A DNA stretch of 64,000 bases from Kribbella sindirgiensis (GTDB lineage Bacteria > Actinomycetota > Actinomycetes > Propionibacteriales > Kribbellaceae). Position numbers and translations under genes: made by a program. The stretch covers positions 310,001 through 374,000 of the forward strand of contig NZ_SJKA01000005.1 of assembly GCF_004331435.1 (NCBI RefSeq), written 5' to 3'. A model generated the notes under the pieces. The model was not told the DNA's origin, searched no databases, and saw only the letters and a list, made by a program, of their open reading frames with translations. Shown here in pieces: positions 8,792-44,258 of this stretch. Within the stretch, counting starts at the first letter, position 1. The number at the start of each line of letters is the position of its first letter.

Positions 8792-9142
8792 TCGCACTCC
8801 GTCAGTTCAGTCGGCCGGATTTCGGTCCGCGGATCCGGCACACATCGGTGGATGGCGTGCCGACCTTTGCTCTCTTGAGGGCTCCGGTCAAATCGCCTTG
8901 ACAAGCGATTCCGTCCGAGCCGGGCGCTAGCCTGCCCGACGCGGTGACACCAAACCAGCAGTGCCCGGCAGCGGTAAACAAATCGTTACCGGAACCGGTA
9001 GTCGAACGGGATAATTGCCCCGTTTGGTCACCGTCCGCAGTTGAGCCCTTGCGAAACGCGTCGGCACAGTACCGACAGTGGCCATTTTGTGCCAGGTTAT
9101 TACGGACGGTAACGATTCTCGACGTTCGGTCGCGGAACGGGG
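8792..9142. promoter_or_regulatory. Gene-free 350-bp region upstream of the peptide operon with repeated motif
   Basis: No coding signal on either strand. It holds several related repeats: AATCGTTACCG at 8981-8991 and its exact reverse complement CGGTAACGATT at 9107-9117; CGGTAA-N8-TTACCG at 8972-8991; TACCGG-AA-CCGGTA at 8987-9000; and an imperfect long inverted pair, 8942-8955 with 9021-9033. This density suggests a regulator-binding region for the peptide operon. The flanking gcvT gene ends here, so its own promoter is elsewhere. Confidence 0.5.
8863..8891 (-). promoter_or_regulatory. Weak candidate promoter of the peptide operon
   Basis: On the minus strand, TTGACC (8886-8891) is followed after 17 nt by AAAGGT (8863-8868), about 70 nt upstream of the ATG at 8791. 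The -35 is good and the -10 is poor, so this is only a suggestion. Confidence 0.3.
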
Positions 9143-10264
9143 TCAGCGCACGTGAACCGTCACGAAGGGCGGTTTGACGACGTCGAAGGTTTCCCCGCGG
9201 CCCCGGATGTCGACGGTTACCTGATCGCCTTCTTTCACCGACGCGTCCAGCAACGCCAACGCAATACCTTTCTTCAGCGTCGGCGAGAACGTTCCGGAGG
9301 TAACTTCACCCAGCGCCGTACCAGATTGATCCAGAACCGCCATGTGCGGCCGCGGAATACCCCGTCCGGCGGCCCGCAGGCCGCGCAGGATCCGGGCCGG
9401 TCCGCGCTCCTTCTCGGCGCGCAGGGCCGCGTCGCCCCAGAAGTGCTCCTTCTTCCAGCCGACGGCCCAGCCCGACCGTGCCTGGACGGGCGTGATGTCC
9501 GGCGCGATGTCCTGACCGTGCAGCGGGTACCCCATCTCGGTCCGCAGCGTGTCCCGCGCGCCCAGTCCGGCCGGGACGATGCCGTACTGCTCGCCGGCCG
9601 CCAGCAGCGCGTCGAACACCGCCACCGCGGCGGCGTTCGGTACGACGAGCTCGAAGCCGCGCTCACCCGTGTAGCCGGTGCGGCACACGACCACCGGCGT
9701 ACCGCCGAAGTCGGCTGTCGCGAAGGACATGTAGTCCATGCCGTCTCTGCCCGTCGGCAGGCCGATCGCGGACACCACCTCGTCGCTGTTCGCGCCCTGC
9801 ACCGCGAGGATCGCGTAGTCGTCGTGGACGTTGGTCACCTCGACGCCGTCGGGTGCGTCGGCCTGGAGCAGGCGCACGACCTCGGCCGTGTTGGCAGCGT
9901 TCGGGATCAGGAACACGTCGTCGTCGGCGTGCAGGTAGGCGATCAGGTCGTCGACCACTCCCCCGTTCTCGTTGCAGCACAGCGTGTACTGCGCCTGACC
10001 GGGCGCGATCTTGCCGAGATCGTTGGTCAGGCACGCGTTCACGTACGCCGCGGCGCCCGGACCCTTGACGGTCGCCTTGCCGAGATGGCTGACGTCGAAG
10101 ACGCCGACCGACGTACGCACCGCGGTGTGCTCGGCCACGACGCCGGAATACTCCAGGGGCATCTCCCAGCCGCCGAACTCGGCGAACTTGGCGCCGAGCG
10201 CGACGTGGCGCTCGTGCAACGGGGACTTCTTCAGAACAGGCGACTGCGAAGATGACGGGGTCAT
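9143..10264 (-). CDS. gcvT: Glycine cleavage system T protein (aminomethyltransferase)
   Basis: 373 residues, the usual length, from ATG 10264; a longer upstream open frame has no family match and was discarded. The protein opens with [30 protein letters not shown]-type sequence, then VFDVSHLGK, the tetrahydrofolate-binding GCVT_N domain with [12 protein letters not shown], and the C-terminal beta-barrel with the RGxG-like end. T protein takes the aminomethyl group from lipoyl-H protein and passes the methylene to tetrahydrofolate, releasing ammonia. The other gcv genes are not in this window. Transcribed away from pepA. I looked for a glycine riboswitch in the 97-bp gap and saw none. Confidence 0.94.
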
Positions 10265-10361
10265 GGAGCGCAAACTACCGGACGCGTAGCATGCGGAGGC
10301 AGCTCGCACGTACCGTGACGACCGGCTGTCTGCCCGCCGGTCAAGGAGGACTGAGGATTTC

Positions 10362-11858
10362 GTGACCACCATCACCCTGAGCAAGTCAGATGCCGCCGGC
10401 GTCAAGAGCGACGCCGTGGTCATCGGCGTGGTCAAGAGCGGCGGCGGTGTCACGCTGCCGGCCGGCACCGAATCGCTGAACGCCGCGTACGGCGGGAAGC
10501 TGGTGGAGGTGCTGTCCGGGCTCGGCGCCACCGGCAAGGCCGGCGAGGTGACGAAGGTGCCCGGTCCCAACCCCGGCAAGTCGGCCACCCTGATCGCGGT
10601 CGGTCTCGGCGCCGCCCCGGACGGCGAACTGAAGACCGAGGACCTGCGGACCGCGGCCGGGACCGGTGTGCGGGCCGCCAAGATCTCTCAGTCCGTCGCG
10701 TTCGCGCTTCCGACTCCGGACGCCGAGTGCGTGCGCGCGGTGGCCGAGGGCGCGCTGATGGGTCGCTACGCGTTCACGGCGTACAAGTCGTCGGACGGCG
10801 CGAACGACGCGCCCGGCAACCTGACCGTGCTCACCGACCTGGCCCGGAACAAGGACGCCAAGGCCGCCCTCGAGCGCGCCCAGGTGACCGCGGAGGCCGT
10901 CGCGCAGGTGCGCGACTGGGTGAACACGCCGCCGTCGGACCTGCACCCGGCCGAGTTCGCGGCCGACGCGGTCAAGCTCGGCAAGGAGTACGGCGTCAAG
11001 GTCGAGGTGCTCGACGAGAAGGCGCTCGCCAAGGGCGGGTACGGCGGCATCCTCGGCGTCGGCCAGGGCTCGAGCAACCCGCCGCGGCTGGTCCGGCTGA
11101 CCTACACCCCTCGCAAGCCGGTTACGCACCTCGCGTTCGTCGGCAAGGGCATCACCTTCGACTCCGGCGGCCTGTCGCTGAAGACGTCGACCGGCATGGT
11201 GAGCATGAAGTCCGACATGGCCGGCGCCGCCGCGGTGATCGGCGCGACGATCGCCATCGCCCGGCTCGGCCTGCCGGTCCAGGTGACGTCGTACGCCGCG
11301 ATGGCCGAGAACATGCCGTCGGGTTCCGCGGCCCGGCCTTCCGACGTGCTGACGATGTACGGCGGCAAGACCGTCGAGGTGCTGAACACCGACGCCGAGG
11401 GCCGCCTGGTACTCGGTGACGCGCTGGTCCGCGCGTCCGCGGACCAGCCCGACCTGATCATCGACGTGGCCACCCTGACCGGCGCCTGTGTCGTTGCCCT
11501 CGGCACCAAGGTGGCCGGTGCGTTCGGGAACACCGACACGGCCCGCGACCGGGTGGTGGACGCGGCGGTCGCGGCGGGTGAGTCGATGTGGCCGCTGCCG
11601 ATCCCGGCCGAGATGCTGGACAAGCTGAAGTCGCACTCCAAGGTCGCCGACCTGGCGAACATCACCGGCGAGCCCTGGGGCGGCGCCCTCGCCGCGGCCG
11701 CCTTCCTCGGCGACTTCGTTGCTGACGGCATCGACTGGGTGCACCTGGACGTCGCCGGCCCCGCCTTCAACGACGGCGGCCCTTCCGGTTACACCCCGAC
11801 CGGCGGCACTGGCTACGCCGTCCGCACCCTGGTCGAGCTCGCCGCCTCAGCGAGCTGA
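10362..11858 (+). CDS. pepA: Leucyl aminopeptidase (M17 family)
   Basis: 498 residues from GTG 10362, with AAGGAGG at 10343-10349. The N-terminal macro-like domain occupies about 1-170 and the catalytic domain the rest. All M17 ligands are visible: Lys262 and Asp267 in [10 protein letters not shown], Lys274, Asp285, and Asp344/Glu346 in the signature NTDAEGRL (342-349) with catalytic Arg348. It is a cytoplasmic two-metal hexameric exopeptidase removing N-terminal Leu and other residues, fitting with the peptide importers in the window. In many actinomycetes pepA lies next to lpdA; here the 3.5-kb block at 11922-15724 comes between. A GU-containing hairpin terminator follows. Confidence 0.95.
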
Positions 11859-11880
11859 GGAGCGAATCTCCAGCATGGTG

Positions 11881-11911
11881 CAGCCGGTCCCGGTGCGATA
11901 GGGGCCGGCTG
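11881..11911. terminator. Terminator between convergent pepA and the DUF2848 gene
   Basis: Stem CAGCCGGTCCC / GGGGCCGGCTG (11 bp with one G-U pair), 9-nt loop, then TTCCT. It lies 22 bp after the pepA stop and 11 bp before the stop of the opposing gene, so it can serve both. Confidence 0.7.
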
Positions 11912-11921
11912 TTCCTGCACG

Positions 11922-12593
11922 TCAGTCCCAGGCCGGTGCGAGCTGCTCGATCGAGTACACGACGCGGCTGCTGAGACCGCGCGGGTCGGTCAGCTCCACC
12001 CGCCACGCGTCGGCGAACTGGTCGACGCCCGGGATCATCGGGATCGTCCCGCTGAGCAGCACGGTGCCCGGAACGATCCGCTCCCCCAGCTCCTCGATCC
12101 AGTACGACGGCGGCAGCAACTGTGCCAGTGTCCCGTCCTGGATCAGCGTCTCGACGTCCCCGTGCCGGACCCACGCCTTCAAGGTGAACCGGTCGAGTTC
12201 GTCCTCGATCTCCCTGAGCGGCCAGGCGACGTCACCGAGCAGGTCCGGCGCGGATTGCTTGCTCCAGGCAACGCCATGCACCTCGAGGGCCCGGTCCGTG
12301 TGATCGCACGCGGCCGTGAGCAAGACGTCGTCCTCGCCGACCACCAGCGCCCACTCCGCCTCACCGGACGTCTTGGCGTGGGCGACCTGCACGACCTCCG
12401 GCCGTCCGACGAGTGACGCGGACAGCGGGTACAGCGTCGGGATGCGGCGCGGAGCCGGTACGCCGAGCTGGGCCAGCTCGTCCACGTGATGCTGGACCTG
12501 CGCGGTGTCACGGCCGGCGTAGCCCGCGTTCAGCGCATAGCGGACGGTGACCGCCCGCTCACTCCCGTCGGGCAAGGTGAACCGCATCGTCAT
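11922..12593 (-). CDS. DUF2848 family protein
   Basis: 223 residues from ATG 12593, behind GGAGG. The sequence looks like the DUF2848 family, which resembles fumarylacetoacetate-hydrolase folds: an N-terminal beta-rich part, PTLYPLSASLVGRPEVVQV and HAKTSGEAEWALVVG in the middle, and a C-terminal PGTVLLSGTIPMIPGVDQFADAW segment that recalls the FAH metal/substrate loop. No reaction is assigned to the family as far as I know. It is divergent from the MFS transporter and shares with it a 90-bp promoter region holding the operator at 12640-12655, so it probably belongs to the same catabolic unit as the transporter and the amidase. Confidence 0.75.
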   Translation of the reverse strand: MTMRFTLPDGSERAVTVRYALNAGYAGRDTAQVQHHVDELAQLGVPAPRRIPTLYPLSASLVGRPEVVQVAHAKTSGEAEWALVVGEDDVLLTAACDHTDRALEVHGVAWSKQSAPDLLGDVAWPLREIEDELDRFTLKAWVRHGDVETLIQDGTLAQLLPPSYWIEELGERIVPGTVLLSGTIPMIPGVDQFADAWRVELTDPRGLSSRVVYSIEQLAPAWD

Positions 12594-36483: not shown

Positions 36484-37908
36484 ATGTTTTCCAGCGCTGA
36501 GGAGCTGCTCGCCTACGTCAAGAACGAGGGCGTCGAGATCGTCGATGTCCGGTTCTGCGACCTGCCGGGCATCATGCAGCACTTCACCGTCCCGGTGTCG
36601 TCGTTCGGTCCCGAGGTCTTCGAGGACGGCCTCGCCTTCGACGGTTCGTCGGTGCGCGGTTTCCAGCAGATCCACGAGTCCGACATGAAGCTGCTGCCGG
36701 ACCCGACCAGCGCGTACGTCGACGAGTTCCGCAGCGCCAAGACGCTGGTGGTCAACTTCTTCGTGCACGACCCGCTGACCGGCGAGGCGTACTCGCGCGA
36801 CCCGCGCAACATCGCCCGCAAGGCGCAGGAGTACCTGAAGTCGACCGGCATCGCGGACACCGCGTTCTTCGCTCCCGAGGCCGAGTTCTACGTCTTCGAC
36901 GACGTCCGGTTCGAGACCAAGGCGAACTCCTCGCACTACTCGATCGACTCGATCGCCGGCGCCTGGAACACCGGCCGGGTCGAGGACGGCGGCAACCGCG
37001 GCTACAAGGTCCGCTACAAGGGTGGCTACTTCCCGGTCGCGCCGACCGACCACTTCGGTGAGCTGCGCGACGACATCACGCTGGCGCTGGAGCGGTCCGG
37101 CCTGACCGTCGAGCGCGCCCACCACGAGGTCGGTACGGCGGGTCAGGCGGAGATCAACTTCCGCTTCGACGAGCTGCTCAAGGCCGCCGACGACGTGATG
37201 AAGTTCAAGTACATCGTCAAGAACACCGCCTGGAAGGCCGGCAAGACCGCGACCTTCATGCCGAAGCCGATCTTCGGTGACAACGGCTCCGGCATGCACT
37301 GCCACCAGTCGCTGTGGAGCAACGGCGACCCGCTGTTCTACGACGAGTCCGGGTACGGCGGCCTGTCCGACACCGCCCGCTGGTACATCGGCGGCCTGCT
37401 CAAGCACGCCCCGTCGCTGCTGGCCTTCACGAACCCGACCGTGAACTCGTACCACCGCCTGGTGCCGGGCTTCGAGGCGCCGGTCAACCTGGTCTACTCG
37501 TCCCGGAACCGCTCGGCCTGCATCCGGATCCCGATCACCGGCTCGAACCCGAAGGCGAAGCGGATCGAGTTCCGCTGCCCCGACCCGTCGGCGAACCCGT
37601 ACCTGGCGTTCGCGGCGCAGCTGCTGGCCGGCCTGGACGGTATCCGCAACAAGATCGAGCCGGCCGACCCGGTCGACAAGGACCTCTACGAGCTGCCGCC
37701 GGAGGAGCACGCGGGTATCGCGCAGGTCCCGACCTCGCTGCCGGCCGTGATCGACGCCCTCGAGGCCGACCACGCCTTCCTGCTCGAGGGCGACGTCTTC
37801 ACCGAGGACCTGATCGAAACCTGGATCGACCTCAAGCGCGACAACGAAATCGCCCCGATCCAGCTCCGCCCCCACCCCCACGAGTTCGAGCTCTACTACG
37901 ACGTCTGA
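36484..37908 (+). CDS. glnA: Glutamine synthetase, type I-beta
   Basis: 474 residues from ATG 36484, AGGAG at 36474-36478. It opens with [32 protein letters not shown] and has the DGSSVRGFQ loop, the AEFYVFD and [12 protein letters not shown] active-site segments, the [17 protein letters not shown] block, and the adenylylation site Tyr402 in DLYELPPEE, so activity is probably tuned by GlnE. It makes glutamine from glutamate, ammonia and ATP in the cytoplasm as a dodecamer. A GlnR box controls transcription. A 17-bp stem terminator and then an IS110 element follow. Confidence 0.97.
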
Positions 37909-38129: not shown

Positions 38130-38340
38130 GGCCTTGAAGCAAGGCTCCTGGTCGCTGGGTCCGGTATGACTTACTGCCCCTGTCGTGTGCATGATCCGGG
38201 GGTGTTGTCGCCGGGCCTGGTGGCGTTGGTTGACCGCTGATAGGGACAGGGCCGCCTGCTGGGTAGGTCTCTTCGTAACGTGGGTGCCGGCATCCTTCGC
38301 CTGATCTGGTGACCAGGTTGGTTCGATGTGAGGAGGCAGT
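38130..38340 (+). ncRNA. Candidate IS110 bridge RNA in the transposase leader
   Basis: The 5' leader folds by eye into three successive hairpins: GCCTTG-AAG-CAAGGC (38131-38145); a long one closed by CCCTGTC (38178-38184) with GACAGGG (38245-38251), with an internal CGCC/GGCG stem; and ATCTGG-TGA-CCAGGT near 38314. IS110-group elements encode the target- and donor-specifying bridge RNA in exactly this place. GGGGGTG at 38198-38204, inside the second hairpin, is complementary to CACCCCC at the right end (39555-39561), as expected of a donor-guide segment. The RNA ends are not defined. Confidence 0.45.
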
Positions 38341-38342
38341 CT

Positions 38343-39539
38343 GTGAGTCGCCCGGAGTACGGCGTGTTCCTCGGTCTGGACGTGGGCAAGGAAGAACACC
38401 ACGCCTGCGGCCTGGATGGCGACGGTGAACGGGTACACGACAAGCCGCTGCCGCAGTCGGAGGCGAAGATCCGCGCCGTGTTGGAGGCCTTGTCGGCACA
38501 CGGTCCGGTGCTGGTGATCGTCGATCAGCCGGCCTCGATCGGCGCGCTGGCAGTGACCGTCGCACGTGACTTGGGCATTGACGTGGCCTACCTGCCTGGC
38601 TTGGCGATGCGCCGGATCGCCGACCTGCACCCCGGCTCGGCGAAGACCGACGCCCGCGACGCCTACATCATCGCCGAAGCCGCCCGCTCGATGCCGCACG
38701 CGCTGCGCCGGGTCGACACCGGCGACGAAGCGCTGGCAGATCTGGAAGTTGTCGTCGGCTACGACGACGACTTGGCCGGCGAGGGCACCCGGATCGCCAA
38801 CCGCATCCGCGGTCTGCTCACCCAGATCCACCCCGCGCTGGAACGCGTCCTGGGTCCCAAGATCCAGCACCCCGCCGTACTCGAGCTCCTGACCCGGTTC
38901 GGCGGCCCCCAAGGCCTCGCCGGCGCGACCCGGCGCCAGCTCATCACCGCCACCAAGACCCGCGCCCCACGCTCCTACGACAAGCTCGTCACCGCCGTCC
39001 AGCAGGCACTGACCGAGCAGACCGTCACCGTCCCCGGCACCCGCGCCGCCGAACATGTCCTGCCCCGGCTCGCGGCCGCTCTGGCCGGCCTGCTGACCGA
39101 ACGAGCCGACGCCGCCCGGCAGATCGAGGAGATGCTCGATGCACACCCTCTTTCCAAGGTCCTGACCTCGATACCGGGGATCGGCGTCAGGACCGGAGCA
39201 CGGATTCTCCTCGAGGTCGGCGACGGCACCGCGTTCCCCACCCCCGGCCACCTCGCGGCCTACGCCGGGCTCGCACCCGTGACCCGCCGCTCCGGCACCT
39301 CCATCCGCGGCGAGCACCCCAGCCGCGGCGGGAACAAACAACTCAAGCGGGCTTTCTTCCTCGCCGCGTTCGCCGCCCTGTCCGACCCCACCTCCCGGGC
39401 CTACTACGACCGCAAACGAGCCGCCGGCAAGAAACACAACGCCGCCCTCATATGCCTCGCCCGACGCCGAATCGATGTCCTCCACGCCATGCTCCGCACC
39501 GGCACCCTCTACCAACGCCCAACCCCGTCAGCCGCTTGA
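38343..39539 (+). CDS. IS110-family transposase (DEDD recombinase)
   Basis: 398 residues from GTG 38343, AGGAGG at 38331-38336 with 6-nt spacing. The RuvC-like N-terminal domain has Asp13 (FLGLDVGKEEHH), Asp61 (VIVDQPASIGA, where many members have Glu), and Asp103/Asp106 (KTDARDAYII). The C-terminal Transposase_20 domain follows: SIPGIGVRTGARILLEVGD and AYAGLAPVTRRSGTSIRGEHPSRGGNKQLKRA, which includes the catalytic serine region. The frame is intact and full length, so the element may be active. Recombination by this family is guided by a bridge RNA, probably encoded in its leader. Confidence 0.93.
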   Translation: MSRPEYGVFLGLDVGKEEHHACGLDGDGERVHDKPLPQSEAKIRAVLEALSAHGPVLVIVDQPASIGALAVTVARDLGIDVAYLPGLAMRRIADLHPGSAKTDARDAYIIAEAARSMPHALRRVDTGDEALADLEVVVGYDDDLAGEGTRIANRIRGLLTQIHPALERVLGPKIQHPAVLELLTRFGGPQGLAGATRRQLITATKTRAPRSYDKLVTAVQQALTEQTVTVPGTRAAEHVLPRLAAALAGLLTERADAARQIEEMLDAHPLSKVLTSIPGIGVRTGARILLEVGDGTAFPTPGHLAAYAGLAPVTRRSGTSIRGEHPSRGGNKQLKRAFFLAAFAALSDPTSRAYYDRKRAAGKKHNAALICLARRRIDVLHAMLRTGTLYQRPTPSAA

Positions 39540-39598: not shown

Positions 39599-39649
39599 GC
39601 TCGTGGGACGAGCCCTGTTTGCGGTGCTGGCAATGCCGCTAGCAGCGGC
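39599..39649 (-). terminator. Two hairpins after the membrane winged-helix gene
   Basis: GCTCGT-GGG-ACGAGC (39599-39613) and GCCGCT-AGC-AGCGGC (39635-39649, touching the minus-strand stop). They probably end the transcript of the three-gene island cluster. The rest of 39563-39648 shows no gene. Confidence 0.5.
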
Positions 39650-40467
39650 TACGCCTGGACCTGTTTGTAGAGCACGTAGTCATCGCCGTCGCGCTTCAGA
39701 TACCCCGCCTTTACGAGCGCCTCGCGCACCGCTGTGGCCGCGTCGGTTTCCACACGGTTGAGGAGAGCGAACGCGACGTTGATTGTGCTGGCGACGCTCG
39801 GTGGATACCAGTAGACCGGCTTTCCGTTCTGGTCCCCGTGGGGAGTAAGAGGCGAGAGGATGCCGACGGCACGGAGCTTTCGCACCGCGTTCCTCGCTCC
39901 GCTGTTCAGGAGTCGTACGTACTGGTTCCTCTCCAGGTGCACTCCGTACTGGCCGATCGCTCGGGCCAACTCGAAGGTGAACGGGTCCAACTCGGCTAGC
40001 TCTTCCATCAAACGGTCGACTCGGCTGGAGGTGCTACCGCCAGCGGATGGTTGCCGGGTGAGTTCGTCTAGGGAGGCGAGTGCGTTCTGAAGGGCCTCTT
40101 CTACTGCTTCTCGGTCGACATTGCTGGCGGCAGAGTCGCCTTCCGCGTTTGCGGCTGGAGCCAGCTCTGTCTTCAGCTCGGCCGCAATACCGCTGGCCAG
40201 CGCCTTGACGTCTTGAGCGCCGGATGCGATCAACGAAGGCCCTGGAATTGCATTGCCGAGCAAGCGATCCCAACCCGCTTTGATGAGGTTCTGGGTGTCA
40301 CTCGACTGCCTCTCGACAGAGGTCTCAATCTTCTGCAGGCTCTTGATGGTTTGCTCAGTGACAGCCTGCGACCGCTTGTCCACCGCCAGGGCGAACCAAA
40401 TCGCCACGATCGAAAGAGTCACACCAACGACGCCAGTGATGACGCCGATCCACGTCGGTACATCCAC
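39649..40467 (-). CDS. One-pass membrane protein with C-terminal winged-helix-like domain (unknown)
   Basis: 272 residues from GTG 40467, with AGGA just upstream; the longer frame to 40794 runs through the integrase remnant and lacks a ribosome site. A single N-terminal span, PTWIGVITGVVGVTLSIVAIWFAL (4-26), is followed by a probable coiled coil (27-60), a polar middle, an acidic helix set (VDREAVEEALQNALASLDEL), and a C-terminal part LARAIGQYGVHLERNQYVRLLNSGARNAVRKLRAVGIL...VREALVKAGYLKRDGDDYVLYK that looks like a winged helix. No family known to me. GC is lower than in the flanking core genes. It ends the minus-strand cluster after the helicase, with the integrase remnant between them. Confidence 0.6.
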   Translation of the reverse strand: MDVPTWIGVITGVVGVTLSIVAIWFALAVDKRSQAVTEQTIKSLQKIETSVERQSSDTQNLIKAGWDRLLGNAIPGPSLIASGAQDVKALASGIAAELKTELAPAANAEGDSAASNVDREAVEEALQNALASLDELTRQPSAGGSTSSRVDRLMEELAELDPFTFELARAIGQYGVHLERNQYVRLLNSGARNAVRKLRAVGILSPLTPHGDQNGKPVYWYPPSVASTINVAFALLNRVETDAATAVREALVKAGYLKRDGDDYVLYKQVQA

Positions 40468-40599
40468 GTTCCTGCCCCCTAATTGTTGAACCAACGTGCC
40501 AAGCCAGCCCTCACGTGCCGTCGCGCTCGGTGCACCAGTTAGCACCCCACGATCGGCTAGCACCCACGCTCGACCACACCTGCCCCGCTCGACGACTGC

Positions 40600-40843
40600 G
40601 GTATCCCGAGATCCCGCGAGAACGGCTGCCACGCCCACCGCCACGTCTACGCGAGCAGGCTGCTTGACGCCGGTGCGTCGATCAAGGCCGTCAGCGAGTA
40701 CCTCGGACGCGCCGACCCCGGCTTCACTCTGAAGGTGTACGCACCTCATGGCGAACAGCTCGGCGCGCACCAAGTTGGCCATCGACGCTGGCATACTGCC
40801 AGCCTCGAATCAGACAGGGCTTCCCTTCTCCGCCGTCATGTGA
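40600..40843 (+). pseudogene. 3' remnant of a tyrosine-recombinase integrase, frameshifted
   Basis: Frame 1 reads GIPRSRENGCHAHRHVYASRLL, then DAGASIKAVSEYLGRADPGFTLKVYA (to 40743). This is the box II region of actinomycete ICE-type (pSAM2-like) integrases, with the His-x-x-Arg-His motif and the nucleophile Tyr in VYA. After a shift near 40743 the next frame continues LMANSSARTKLAIDAG, the normal C-terminal tail (HLMPSS..RT..AID), to a TGA at 40841. Everything upstream of box II is lost. The rest of 40468-40599 shows no gene. Confidence 0.82.
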
Positions 40844-43032
40844 TGTCCGGCAACGGCCGATAGGAGCACCTCAGGTGCACCCCCATCGTCCTCGTTCACA
40901 TAGACACGTACATCTCTCTGGGCGCGGCTGAGCGCTAGGTAGAGGAAGGACAAAAGCCTCGTGCGCTCGTTCGTCGACGGTGCCTCGATATCGGGTATGC
41001 CAGTGACCAGGACGGTGTCAAACTGCAGACCCGCCAGGTACTCGGCCGGCGCCACGACAACGCCCCGTCGCCGATAGCCGAGTCCCTCGATGTCGGATCG
41101 CCCTGAGATCGTTGAAACGTGAAAGTTGGCAGGCTGCCCGATCCTGGATGCGAACTCAGTGAACCGCGGCCACTGGCGGCTGTCGACAACCGCGACGGCA
41201 ACTCGGCCCGATGAGTACAGGTCACGAATCGCTCGGAATAGATCATTCTCCTCGGCAGCCCTCGTTCCTGACGTGATCAGCCGGGGTAGGGGACCCGCGT
41301 CCTGCGCTGATTCGACCGAGCTGAAGTCGATATCCCAGTCATGCCCAAGGTCGAACGTTGGGAACTTGAGATGCACATGCTTGATCAACGCCAGGATTTG
41401 CGGAGTGAACCTGTGCACGGTGGTGAGCTCGAAGTTCGTGACGTCACCCAGGTCGTCGTCAGATGCCGCCGATGTGGACGACCTGGTCTCCTTCGCCGCG
41501 ATCCCGATGAACGCCTCCGATGGTGACTGGCGAGGGTCTAGCGCCATGAACACGCGCGGATAAGACGTAACGTCACGGGTCAGGAAGTGAAGTACCTGGC
41601 GCTCCAGTGGACTGAAGAGATGGAACTCATCCACGAAAACAAGGTCATACCCAACCGATTTGCGCGTACGGTTCCAGGCATGCGTCTCAAGATGACTCAG
41701 GAAGTCGGCCAGGACCTGGTCCGACGTCATCTTCGAACGGGCCTCCAGGTTCCTCATGTACCGCAAGTACAGCTCGAACACGACCCGCATCTCGTCCCTC
41801 GATGCGAGCGGGAGCATCCAAGATGCGCGTGGCAGCTGGAAGTAGCGAAGGTCTGACCCTGCTCCCGGGAAGATTGCCGCAGCGCCGATTACCGACCCGA
41901 ACTCGACGAGCAGGTCCCAAGCCAGCGCAAGTCGGTCCTCCTCGTCCGTAGAGTCGAACCGCGCGCAAAGAGTCTCGCCCACGGACGCCCGGTAGGTGAT
42001 CCAATCCTCCGCCACGAAATCGTCGAGCAGGCCCCGGATCTCGTCGAGCTGGGCCCGCTTGCCGCTATAGCTGTCCTCGCCGATGAGGCTAAACCCCGAG
42101 GTGTCCGTGAGGTAATGCGGCGACACCGTCTTCGCAATCTCGAGTAGAGGAAAGACGTCGATCTCATTCAGAATGCCTAGACCCATCGAGTCCATCGAGT
42201 CCTGAATCTGCGCCGCCAACGCCCAACTATGCGTCACCACGAGGACCCGAATCTCGTCGCCAGCGTCTCGAGCGGCCATTACCTCGCGGACGGCCTTGAT
42301 GGTGAGTGCCAGCGTCTTCCCAGACCCTGCCGGACCGCGCAGCCGAATTGACTTGTCAGTTCCAGTCTCGATGAAAGCTCGCTGGTCCTCGCTGACCGAT
42401 CTCAGCCACTGGTCGTACGACCAACCCTTAGTTGTCGATTCCTCCCGCGCCGCAAGCGACATCTCGACATCCGACGGCGCCGGTCCGCGCGCATGGTCGA
42501 AATACCGCTTGGCGGCTTGGTATGCCTGAGTCCATGCGGCGTCGATCTGCGGTACTAGTGGGTGCGGGGACCGCGCGAACTCTTCGAGTGTTTCCTTCTT
42601 GTTCGATGTGGTGGTCAACCAAAACACGACGTCCGACCGGTCGCCCGGCAACACCTCGGCGATCCATCTGCTGGCCTGCGCGTCGAGGCCGGGCACCGCG
42701 TAGAACGCGATCAGGTGGTTGTACTTGTACTGATGCCACCCGGTCGGAAGCGAAAGCGGGCCGCTAATCCGTGCGCGCTCAGCGAACGACGCCATCCGGC
42801 TCAGCACGTTCCTGCGGTGCAACGCGAGATGTTCGGGAACGTAGCGCTCCTTCAGATTCTTCTCCCGCAGCAGGACGACTCGCTGGGCGGAGTGATCATC
42901 AGTCGAGCAGATCAGCAGATCGACCTCCGGGGTGTCGATTTCGAAGAGGATCGGCGAGGCCGAAATCGCCTCTGGCGACAGCCCGGTCGCCAGTTCCCGC
43001 AGTGCGTCAACAGTTACGATCAAGGGTTTCAC
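40810..43032 (-). CDS. UvrD-like superfamily 1 helicase/ATPase of an island cluster
   Basis: 740 residues from ATG 43032. Residues 1-205 form an N-terminal domain I cannot assign. The helicase core has the Gln motif (SEDQRAF, Gln217), Walker A GPAGSGKT at 233-240, Walker B LVFVDEF at 464-470, motif III VFMALDPRQS near 495-503, and motif VI LYLALSRAQRDVRVYV near 695-710. There is no visible nuclease motif. It overlaps the upstream gene by 4 bp (ATGA at 43029-43032), so both are made together. The last 34 bp overlap the integrase remnant, suggesting that the 3' end was set by a recombination event. Related stand-alone SF1 helicases occur in phage-defence and DNA-repair loci. Confidence 0.78.
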   Translation of the reverse strand: MKPLIVTVDALRELATGLSPEAISASPILFEIDTPEVDLLICSTDDHSAQRVVLLREKNLKERYVPEHLALHRRNVLSRMASFAERARISGPLSLPTGWHQYKYNHLIAFYAVPGLDAQASRWIAEVLPGDRSDVVFWLTTTSNKKETLEEFARSPHPLVPQIDAAWTQAYQAAKRYFDHARGPAPSDVEMSLAAREESTTKGWSYDQWLRSVSEDQRAFIETGTDKSIRLRGPAGSGKTLALTIKAVREVMAARDAGDEIRVLVVTHSWALAAQIQDSMDSMGLGILNEIDVFPLLEIAKTVSPHYLTDTSGFSLIGEDSYSGKRAQLDEIRGLLDDFVAEDWITYRASVGETLCARFDSTDEEDRLALAWDLLVEFGSVIGAAAIFPGAGSDLRYFQLPRASWMLPLASRDEMRVVFELYLRYMRNLEARSKMTSDQVLADFLSHLETHAWNRTRKSVGYDLVFVDEFHLFSPLERQVLHFLTRDVTSYPRVFMALDPRQSPSEAFIGIAAKETRSSTSAASDDDLGDVTNFELTTVHRFTPQILALIKHVHLKFPTFDLGHDWDIDFSSVESAQDAGPLPRLITSGTRAAEENDLFRAIRDLYSSGRVAVAVVDSRQWPRFTEFASRIGQPANFHVSTISGRSDIEGLGYRRRGVVVAPAEYLAGLQFDTVLVTGIPDIEAPSTNERTRLLSFLYLALSRAQRDVRVYVNEDDGGAPEVLLSAVAGHHMTAEKGSPV

Positions 43033-43859
43033 GAGAACGTGGCCTCCAAAACTTCCGAATGCAGGTCGCGTACGTCCTCGTATTCTGTTGGCAGACCAAT
43101 CGACATGAAGACCAACGCGAACCTTTGCACGAGCGCGTGCGTGAACTTGTCACGCAGACGCGCAATCCGTCGGTACGTCACCTCTTGCCGCTTCGGACCG
43201 AGCGCGATGCACGGTTCCCAGATCTGCTTGAGATAACGTAGGTACGCGAAGTAACCAGCGGCCTGCCCCGGTGCGATGGACCCCAAGAAGAATGCATCGC
43301 CAGGAGGTTGCGTGTAATTGCTGCGCAACGGAGGCATCACCCGACCAAGCGCATTTTCACGCTTTGGCGGGTTTGGTCCCATTAGTTGGCCGTCAACTAG
43401 CGCTTCGACAGCCTCATTGAGAGTCAATGCCTCGGAATCCATCCTGCGGATGGATTCGAGACTCCGACGCACCGCCTCCGCCTCTCGATCGCGCAACTTG
43501 AGCAACGCAACGATCTCGGCCGGCTCCTCCTCACCAACCCATTCCCGAAGGCGGTGGGTCGATACCTTCGGCAGACCAAGCCGTGCCATGGTTGCCTGCA
43601 GATCCACGATTGCTCTTGCCACCAGCCGGTCGCGGATCTTCGGAATCTGCATTTCGGACAGGTAGTCGTCTTCTGCCAGCAGCGGCACGCAGGTCACCCG
43701 ACCGCGATGTTTGTCAAACGCCAGATCGCAGTCTGCTGTGATCACGACCAGATGGCGGTCCCATATCGTCGCACCTGGATCCACGGCCTCCAGCACATCG
43801 CCCTGACGCAACGGATCAGCGGCGGTGACTTCTCGATACTCGGTAAACGGCTCACCCAT
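43029..43859 (-). CDS. Unknown protein with TADCDLA motif, paired with the helicase
   Basis: 276 residues from ATG 43859, behind GGAGGGGG; the open frame runs 90 residues further 5' but with no ribosome site. The N-terminus is PLRQGDVLEAVDPG, then a hydrophobic strand and the motif VVITADCDLAFDKH (39-51) and RVTCVPLL. The centre is helical with many charged residues (EEEPAEIVALLKLRDREAEAVRRSLESIRRMDSEAL). The C-terminal third is basic, with YFAYLRYLKQIWEPCIALGPKRQEVTYRRIARLRDKFTHALVQRF. Proteins with a similar T-x-x-CDL strand are, from memory, often genome-island proteins next to ATPases; I cannot name the family. First gene of the cluster. Confidence 0.62.
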   Translation of the reverse strand: MGEPFTEYREVTAADPLRQGDVLEAVDPGATIWDRHLVVITADCDLAFDKHRGRVTCVPLLAEDDYLSEMQIPKIRDRLVARAIVDLQATMARLGLPKVSTHRLREWVGEEEPAEIVALLKLRDREAEAVRRSLESIRRMDSEALTLNEAVEALVDGQLMGPNPPKRENALGRVMPPLRSNYTQPPGDAFFLGSIAPGQAAGYFAYLRYLKQIWEPCIALGPKRQEVTYRRIARLRDKFTHALVQRFALVFMSIGLPTEYEDVRDLHSEVLEATFS

Positions 43860-44131
43860 TGGTTGTCCCCCTCCGTATCGGTGCGGGGCACGCCCAGCCA
43901 GACCCAGCAGCCCCTCGGCCACCCGGCTGATGCCCACAACGTCTCGCACCCGGTTACCGCTACTACATCGCCGCGGAGGTCCGATCGTTACAGAGCGTTG
44001 CAGGTCGTCAGCGTTGCTAGCTGTTCGTGTGGCCGACGCTAGCGGCTCCGATCGCACGGGTGGGCTCGACGTCGGCGGACCGGTCAGGCCCGGGCGGCTC
44101 GCTCGATCAGGGGAGAGGCTCGGCGTCATGA
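43860..44131. other. Gene-free upstream region of the island cluster
   Basis: About 270 bp with no convincing gene on either strand. It should hold the promoter of the TADCDLA-protein/helicase pair. GCTAGC occurs twice, 27 bp apart, near 44014 and 44040. The base composition changes back toward the high-GC core here, so the right border of the island is probably in or just after it. Confidence 0.4.
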
Positions 44132-44242
44132 GGGCTGGATCAGATGAGCCGTGGCCTCGATCTGCTTGACGATACCGGCCAAGCCGACCTGTTCGAACTG
44201 GCGCGCACCCGATCTGCCGGTGCTGCTACTGACGACGTCTGA
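44132..44242 (+). pseudogene. Orphan 3' gene end (unrecognised)
   Basis: A plus-strand frame opens after a TGA and reads GLDQMSRGLDLLDDTGQADL, then FELARTRSAGAATDDV, to TGA 44240-44242, followed at once by a T-tailed plus-strand terminator. A terminator in this orientation needs an upstream plus-strand gene, yet none is left. It is probably the stub of a gene cut by the island. It could also be a tiny free-standing gene; there is no Shine-Dalgarno before the ATG at 44144. Confidence 0.35.
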
Positions 44243-44258
44243 GTCGTAGTCGAACGTC

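Follow-up and report, generated by a model that had tools for sequence, protein, structure and literature searches.

We report a conserved, unnamed module of two genes, in which a protein of predicted MazF/CcdB fold (gene A) is encoded next to a UvrD-type superfamily 1 (SF1) helicase (gene B). The pair is most likely a form of helicase-gated two-gene immunity that has not previously been described in the profile libraries we searched. The window, the whole stretch of 64,000 nucleotides of Kribbella sindirgiensis DNA that was analysed, carries the pair on its minus strand, inside a small island downstream of glnA. The features that the argument uses are the following:

37884 to 37908, plus strand: last 25 bases of glnA, the predicted attachment site and left end of the island
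38328 to 39539, plus strand: ORF of an IS110-type transposase, 403 amino acids (family assigned by eye)
39649 to 40471, minus strand: gene C, a neighbour outside the module, with a likely GTG start at 40471 chosen by eye (longest ORF, 39649 to 40794)
about 40630 to 40743, plus strand: tyrosine-recombinase remnant, overlapping the front of the over-long gene C ORF
40810 to 43032, minus strand: gene B, UvrD/PcrA-type SF1 helicase, 740 amino acids, GTG start
43029 to 43859, minus strand: gene A, MazF/CcdB-fold protein of 276 amino acids with a helical insert and a C-D motif
43867 to 43874, minus strand: ribosome-binding site of gene A, GGAGGGGG, strong by its sequence
44226 to 44245, plus strand: eroded right end of the island, where homology to the right flank of genome G012 starts within that genome's repeat of the glnA end

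Genes A and B overlap by four bases. A preliminary description of this DNA had read the overlap as ATGA; its first base is a G and, because gene B starts with GTG, the overlap is GTGA. On the remaining architecture the two accounts agree: gene A encodes 276 residues behind a strong ribosome-binding site and contains the stretch ITADCDLA, gene B encodes a UvrD-like helicase of 740 residues with SF1 motifs, a third ORF lies on the same strand and all three genes are lower in GC content (0.592 for A, 0.611 for B and 0.611 for C) than the whole window (0.683). A promoter scan found no promoter, and the leader RNA of gene A has a z-score of -1.94.

The preliminary description had also counted gene C as a third member of the module, and in this respect it has to be revised: the unit is A plus B. 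In the product of gene C, a single hydrophobic segment is seen at residues 118-136 of the long ORF, and the C-terminus has a weak DUF2087-like match that falls short of the cut-off (E = 0.073). No relative of it was found in the 57 other genomes searched, and the ORFs of the 41 gene B loci contain none at E ≤ 0.01; it was therefore dropped from the module.

The traces of mobility that had been noted around these genes were confirmed, namely the flanking IS110 element, an integrase scar and a return to core sequence near position 44200. The scar is a tyrosine-recombinase remnant with 39% identity over 38 amino acids to an integrase from another genome (locus L053, direct blastp), while a tblastn search of the island with the integrases of L098, L099 and L053 gave no match. 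The right boundary lies near 44.2 kb and was set by comparison with G012. Each of the 38 genomes examined from the genus has glnA, and the distance between the flanks, obtained by subtracting match coordinates, varies among them: it is 6.4 kb from glnA to the right flank in the window, 0.7-1.85 kb in G023, G005, G017, G029, G037, G007, G011, G016, G002 and G010, and 5-13 kb in G012, G019, G032 and G022. In G012, G019, G001 and G009 (loci L098-L101), the final 25-27 bases of glnA occur once more at a distance of 4-11 kb, and an integrase-like ORF, recognized by its motif pattern, adjoins glnA in G012 and G019; within the window, a repeat search returned no direct repeat of this end. Judged from these repeats, the flank spacing and the point where homology to G012 starts, elements integrate at the 3′ end of glnA in this genus, and the A-B pair most likely arrived on one that used it as its attachment site. 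Two of the glnA islands (L099 and L100) contain tail-tape-measure-like ORFs, identified by eye, and may be prophages.

We surveyed the helicase in other genomes, a check that the preliminary description had proposed, by profile searches with B. The searches yielded 22 bacterial loci and 10 loci from a viral collection, which together with the nine loci used for building the profile amount to 41. Gene A lies upstream of gene B in 37 of them; in the remaining four (L025, L030, L046 and L047), B starts no more than 132 bases from the end of a contig. The four-base overlap of the window's type recurs in 15 of the 37 loci with the A-B order. The other spacings, measured between longest ORFs, range from -76 to +20 bases, with the exception of +294 bases at L028, where A is broken. 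With this order and this overlap repeated so often, the association between A and B is more than chance.

Reverse searches with A covered 97 relatives, 396 Actinomycetota genomes and 398 Pseudomonadota genomes. They led to six further genomes with a full-length or split A (G091, G035, G046, G671, G857 and G734), and B follows A in all six, only part of B being visible in G734; G091, G035 and G046 are also loci L013-L015 among the 41. A is present in 20 of the 22 genomes known to hold B, and the two without it are the contig-end loci L025 and L030. It was found once in each of the 20, except for G503 (two copies) and a weak second match in G502. The pair is rare: full-length A occurs in one of the 396 Actinomycetota genomes, which is the window's own, and A occurs in four of the 398 Pseudomonadota genomes, one of which is the already known centre genome and one of which has a split gene. 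Pairwise distances among 28 A proteins and 28 B proteins are correlated at 0.90 (0 of 5000 permutations), a value in which shared ancestry is left in. These surveys contradict the picture of homologues that are always single, core-genomic and partnerless, as the pair stays together on plasmids, in a phage and in an island, partly beside defence genes.

The hosts belong to seven phyla (Actinomycetota, Pseudomonadota, Myxococcota, Spirochaetota, Fibrobacterota, Bacillota and Verrucomicrobiota), of which four rest on one metagenome bin each and Bacillota on one isolate. The window's helicase is closest to a Mycolicibacterium helicase, with 63% identity, compared with 44% identity to the helicase of L014, from another genome of the window's genus; this difference would fit a horizontal spread of the pair. 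Among 5426 complete Escherichia coli genomes, DNA of the pair was matched in 113, always on plasmids and never on the chromosome, and 109 of these matches span 80% or more of the pair. The E. coli form of B was found in 92 plasmid records, 84 of them conjugative, and the E. coli form of A in 88. Both genes are also carried by Klebsiella phage ST16-OXA48phi5.4 (Peduoviridae, P2-like), the sole match when annotated phages were searched with A; viral contigs searched with a close A alignment gave two loci, both already known through B. In the phage (L048, record positions 8931-11992), A and B lie as cargo between a portal gene on one side and a replication-nicking gene on the other.

A plasmid-only distribution in E. 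coli, a large share of conjugative records and a phage-borne copy are also what one would expect if A-B were a nucleic-acid-processing or repair module of mobile elements, serving plasmid or phage upkeep, recombination or counter-defence. In such a module A, as an adaptor of MazF fold or as a subunit that binds nucleic acid, would target or regulate the helicase without any cell being stopped. Two plasmid loci lie beside or near ImuA, ImuB or error-prone polymerase genes, which agrees with such a role. However, chromosomal copies occur in many phyla, partly beside restriction, BREX or Argonaute genes. We consider this explanation unlikely.

The gene neighbourhoods bear on the same choice. We scanned 20 neighbouring proteins (18 from the 138 nearest ORFs and two added), which were picked for size and promise and not at random; 11 match PADLOC models at E ≤ 1e-5 and nine match none. 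The pair is preceded by PglZ and BrxL ORFs of a BREX system at L021, directly by HsdS at L019, and by HsdM and HsdS at L027, where an RtcR-like regulator follows. A mad3/mad8-like protein lies before the pair at L029, a protein matching a type IV restriction model lies after it at L032, a short Argonaute adjoins it at L037, a GajB/RTasHel-like helicase is found further upstream at L005 and a subtilase is a neighbour at L017. Across the 138 nearest ORFs, 144 PADLOC families are touched at E ≤ 1e-10, and NCBIfam identifies integrases (three proteins), BREX proteins and also housekeeping genes, for example glmS, glmU and uvrA. The defence-gene neighbours favour a defence role, as support and not as proof.

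Two arrangements recur in these neighbourhoods. At L019, L027 and L021, A and B lie on the same strand behind HsdS, HsdM-HsdS or PglZ-BrxL, as if appended to restriction or BREX operons. On the plasmids of L005, L006 and L007, annotated multiubiquitin-ThiF-DUF6527 genes lie beside or near the pair; a search of the open-access literature returned no paper on DUF6527.

We now turn to the two proteins. SF1 motifs and a UvrD-like core are both found in protein B, which classifies it as a UvrD/PcrA-type SF1 helicase. In its AlphaFold2 model (pLDDT 82.5, pTM 0.67), the UvrD match spans residues 205-738 (Z = 33.1, 444 residues at 4.0 Å, 14% identity). The PF00580 match is above the cut-off, as is, narrowly, that of the DEAD model PF00270. 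Walker A is present in all 29 B proteins and the strict Walker B pattern in 19 of them, with the D468 and E469 columns invariant. Searches of PADLOC, Pfam, NCBIfam and PHROGs returned general helicase or short matches only. As the preliminary description had stated, no nuclease domain is seen in B, either in Pfam or by structure comparison, and A is therefore the likelier effector.

Residues 1-181 of B form an alpha/beta domain in the model. The profile search that had been advised for this part of the helicase was run and left it without a family: the window's domain has no Pfam match, and 23 B N-termini gave six single-member matches. Two matches to PDB sequences were obtained, of which the best, to ArgJ (E = 0.0042), is not convincing. 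A fold search with the whole helicase barely probes this domain; by eye, a RelE-like fold may be considered for it.

For protein A of the window (P0001), searches of Pfam, PADLOC, NCBIfam and PHROGs returned nothing at E ≤ 1; the search of the other 27 A proteins covered Pfam and PADLOC. Among the 28 aligned members, 14 Pfam families are each touched by a single member (best E = 0.017), and in PADLOC one member each touches PDC-S18, JetB, GajA and DpdE (E = 0.002-0.005); we read all of these matches as chance. Structure prediction, again a check that had been proposed, gives a predicted fold to this protein family, which every library searched had left blank. The AlphaFold2 model, built on a 28-row alignment (mean pLDDT 95, pTM 0.85), is a MazF/CcdB barrel (residues 12-256 minus the insert) interrupted by about 120 helical residues (about 63-183). 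All 50 entries listed by VIA-align are MazF/Kid/CcdB-type toxins by title (Z = 9.2-11.9), the best aligning 103 of 106 residues at 2.6 Å. Foldseek ranked MazF chains first, weakly (best E = 0.085), and a BFVD search with the model found no match (best E = 0.39).

Once the insert is removed, the sequence of A aligns in register with a MazF-like profile, with scores of 24.9 (global) and 26.5 (local), compared with 11.6 and 17.1 for the best of 60 shuffles and 3.9 and 10.5 for the reversed sequence. The HHalign probability is 30-32% with the insert removed and 1-3% at full length. The MazF-like template consists of 11 proteins, ten of them near-identical (23 ORFs were taken, and 12 whose chosen frame was without the family's RPxV stretch were discarded).

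In the structure comparison, CcdB and MazF chains resemble A to about the same degree (4ely_C, a CcdB chain: Z = 11.4, 98 residues, 2.2 Å). This likeness speaks for A poisoning gyrase or some other DNA enzyme in the manner of CcdB, once the helicase releases or steers it; the outcome would be defence-like but would consist in DNA damage and not RNA cleavage. The C-terminal residues of CcdB bind gyrase. Protein A, in contrast, ends in an extra helix and has no counterpart of these residues. In our judgement a CcdB-like poison is improbable.

The catalytic residues of MazF are an Arg and a Thr or Ser. In a register taken from the weak profile alignment, the column of R35 is Arg in four of the 28 A proteins and there is no fixed Thr at 60-63; furthermore, PF02452 (MazF/PemK) matches neither P0001 nor any of the 28 members at E values up to 1. 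That the MazF residues seem not to be kept would agree with the adaptor or binding subunit of a mobile-element module. The family has a conserved set of its own: the window's protein contains T-A-D-C-D-x(4)-K at residues 41-50, the pattern [TSN]-[APG]-x-C-D-x(4,5)-K occurs in 28 of 28 members, and G255 and R208 are present in 28 and 26 of the 28, respectively. That the C-D...K set is invariant suggests strong selection on this site, a point against the mobile-element explanation. In the model, the C-D motif directly follows the second barrel strand and, from this placement, the putative active site of A looks rebuilt rather than lost.

Broken copies provide information on how the two genes depend on each other. 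Gene B ends after 280 residues, with an IS21 gene downstream, at L050; it contains ISKpn26 at L105, where the helicase core is still an ORF; it lies in two frames at L107; and it is split at L007. Gene A is intact at each of these loci. The reverse state, a broken A beside an intact B, is found at L106 (IS1) and L028, and A is split in G734. These copies, some of which are possibly sequencing errors, suggest that neither A nor B is lethal without the other, and the survival of A beside a broken B fits an effector that needs B.

The same loci bear on whether A and B, with their MazF/CcdB fold and tight gene overlap, are an unusual toxin-antitoxin pair, in which A is toxic alone and B restrains it. 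An intact A beside a cut, IS-disrupted, frameshifted or split B would not be expected of such a pair, although B fragments may be made, A may be silent and the frameshifts may be errors. In addition, where a type II system has a small antitoxin, the partner that is kept here is a helicase of 740 amino acids. We regard a toxin-antitoxin pair as very improbable.

Two described systems offer precedents. In Hachiman, the HamA effector is constrained and activated by the HamB sensor helicase (PMC12278908), and that system resembles A-B in having two genes, a small effector of a formerly unknown family and a helicase; HamB as a sensor of aberrant DNA is the model that we propose for B. The likeness has limits. 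HamB is presented there as a Hel308-like helicase (PMC12278908), whereas B is a UvrD-type SF1 helicase, whose 18 matches to PADLOC models at E ≤ 1 include none to HamB. The predicted fold of A is that of MazF/CcdB, and neither P0001 nor the 28 members match HamA (DUF1837) in Pfam or PADLOC. AbpAB likewise joins a helicase to a partner; both AbpA and AbpB are required and the trigger is ssDNA-protein complexes or replication damage (PMC10732053). However, AbpA has a nuclease domain, and no AbpA or AbpB model in PADLOC matches A or B. The Hachiman and AbpAB precedents, together with the broken copies, lead to our reading that B senses, A acts and the cell stops.

Gabija combines a UvrD-like helicase with an effector, but A is not an OLD/TOPRIM nuclease and P0001 has no GajA match (the GajA link of one A member among 28, E = 0.004, is read as chance); GajB models match B over short stretches around Walker A only (best E = 9e-4). 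The helicase and DUF2290 system pairs a UvrD-type helicase with a small partner (PMC10952713), but PF10053 matches neither P0001 nor the 28 A members; among 198 genomes, PF10053 was found at one locus. The MazF/PemK/Kid and CcdB toxins share the barrel of A at the Z scores given above, but A differs from them by its insert of about 120 helical residues, its C-D-x(4,5)-K motif, the missing PF02452 match and a helicase partner in place of a small antitoxin. The open-access literature searched showed no MazF-fold/SF1-helicase defence pair and no match for WP_015060475 or WP_224053116; such a pair may be in print elsewhere.

The preliminary description had proposed a defence or DNA-processing module that does not obviously match a named system. 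The comparison with PADLOC and Pfam, the likelier effector role of A and the defence-type setting uphold this proposal, but not its three-gene make-up; the defence role itself, which we infer, is the most likely one. To our best explanation we give about an even chance: A and B would form a two-gene, horizontally moved, helicase-gated abortive defence in which B senses and A acts. In this scheme B, as a UvrD-type ATPase that has an N-terminal domain of its own, would patrol DNA (or RNA) and react when an invader brings about an abnormal state, for example free ends, stalled forks or complexes of phage single-stranded DNA. The effector would be A, with its MazF/CcdB fold and a rebuilt Cys-Asp-Lys(-Arg) centre. 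Its helical insert could dock on B, and A would presumably stay idle until B engages its substrate. Active A would then cut or block a growth-essential target, most likely RNA if judged by the fold, and the infected cell would cease phage production. Against this reading weigh the low HHalign probability and the weak Foldseek ranking of A, MazF catalytic residues that seem not to be kept, the nine scanned neighbours that match no PADLOC model, the housekeeping genes nearby and the rarity of the pair.

Shorter or fused proteins are reached by the A profile as well; those of L054, L056 and L096 have the C-D motif and resemble A in their C-terminal part. The protein of L054 (1189-1749) is a stand-alone C-D protein of 187 amino acids with the stretch LTQTCDLAQGK and no large insert. 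In L056 (829-2022) and L096 (1486-2544, minus strand), a receiver-like front is followed by the C-D part, and each ORF adjoins a kinase-like ORF, both labels being assigned by eye. The Pfam receiver match in L056 is short of the cut-off, Pfam leaves the C-D part of L054 and L056 uncovered, and viral contigs searched with L054 gave no match. Short A-like matches in L052 and L053 look like out-of-frame artefacts. As to their surroundings, the L054 protein lies behind a TIGR04255-like ORF (by eye), neither of the two having a Pfam match, and an EcoRII-like restriction ORF (by eye) lies beside the fusion in L096.

L056 and L096 may represent a two-component form of defence that uses the same effector and, as a lead only, these proteins suggest that one C-D domain is used with several sensors. 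Tentatively, and with the balance against it, we propose A as the founding member of a new MazF-fold superfamily of immune effectors, which would be built around a Cys-Asp-x(4,5)-Lys ... Arg centre and differ from MazF in their chemistry. Such effectors would be coupled to different sensors, to an SF1 helicase in the A-B pair and to a response-regulator-like receiver beside a kinase-like gene at L056 and L096, or be kept as a short stand-alone protein (L054). If true, bacterial immunity would possess a common effector cartridge that is unnamed in the profile libraries searched.

Pairs of a helicase and an effector are a growing class of immunity, and none that our searches found uses a MazF-type effector. 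The invariant candidate active site of A is open to direct mutation and, since about 2% of complete E. coli genomes carry the pair on plasmids, it is easy to test. If our reading of A as effector and B as sensor is right, toxin folds and DNA-surveillance helicases would be joined in one switch.
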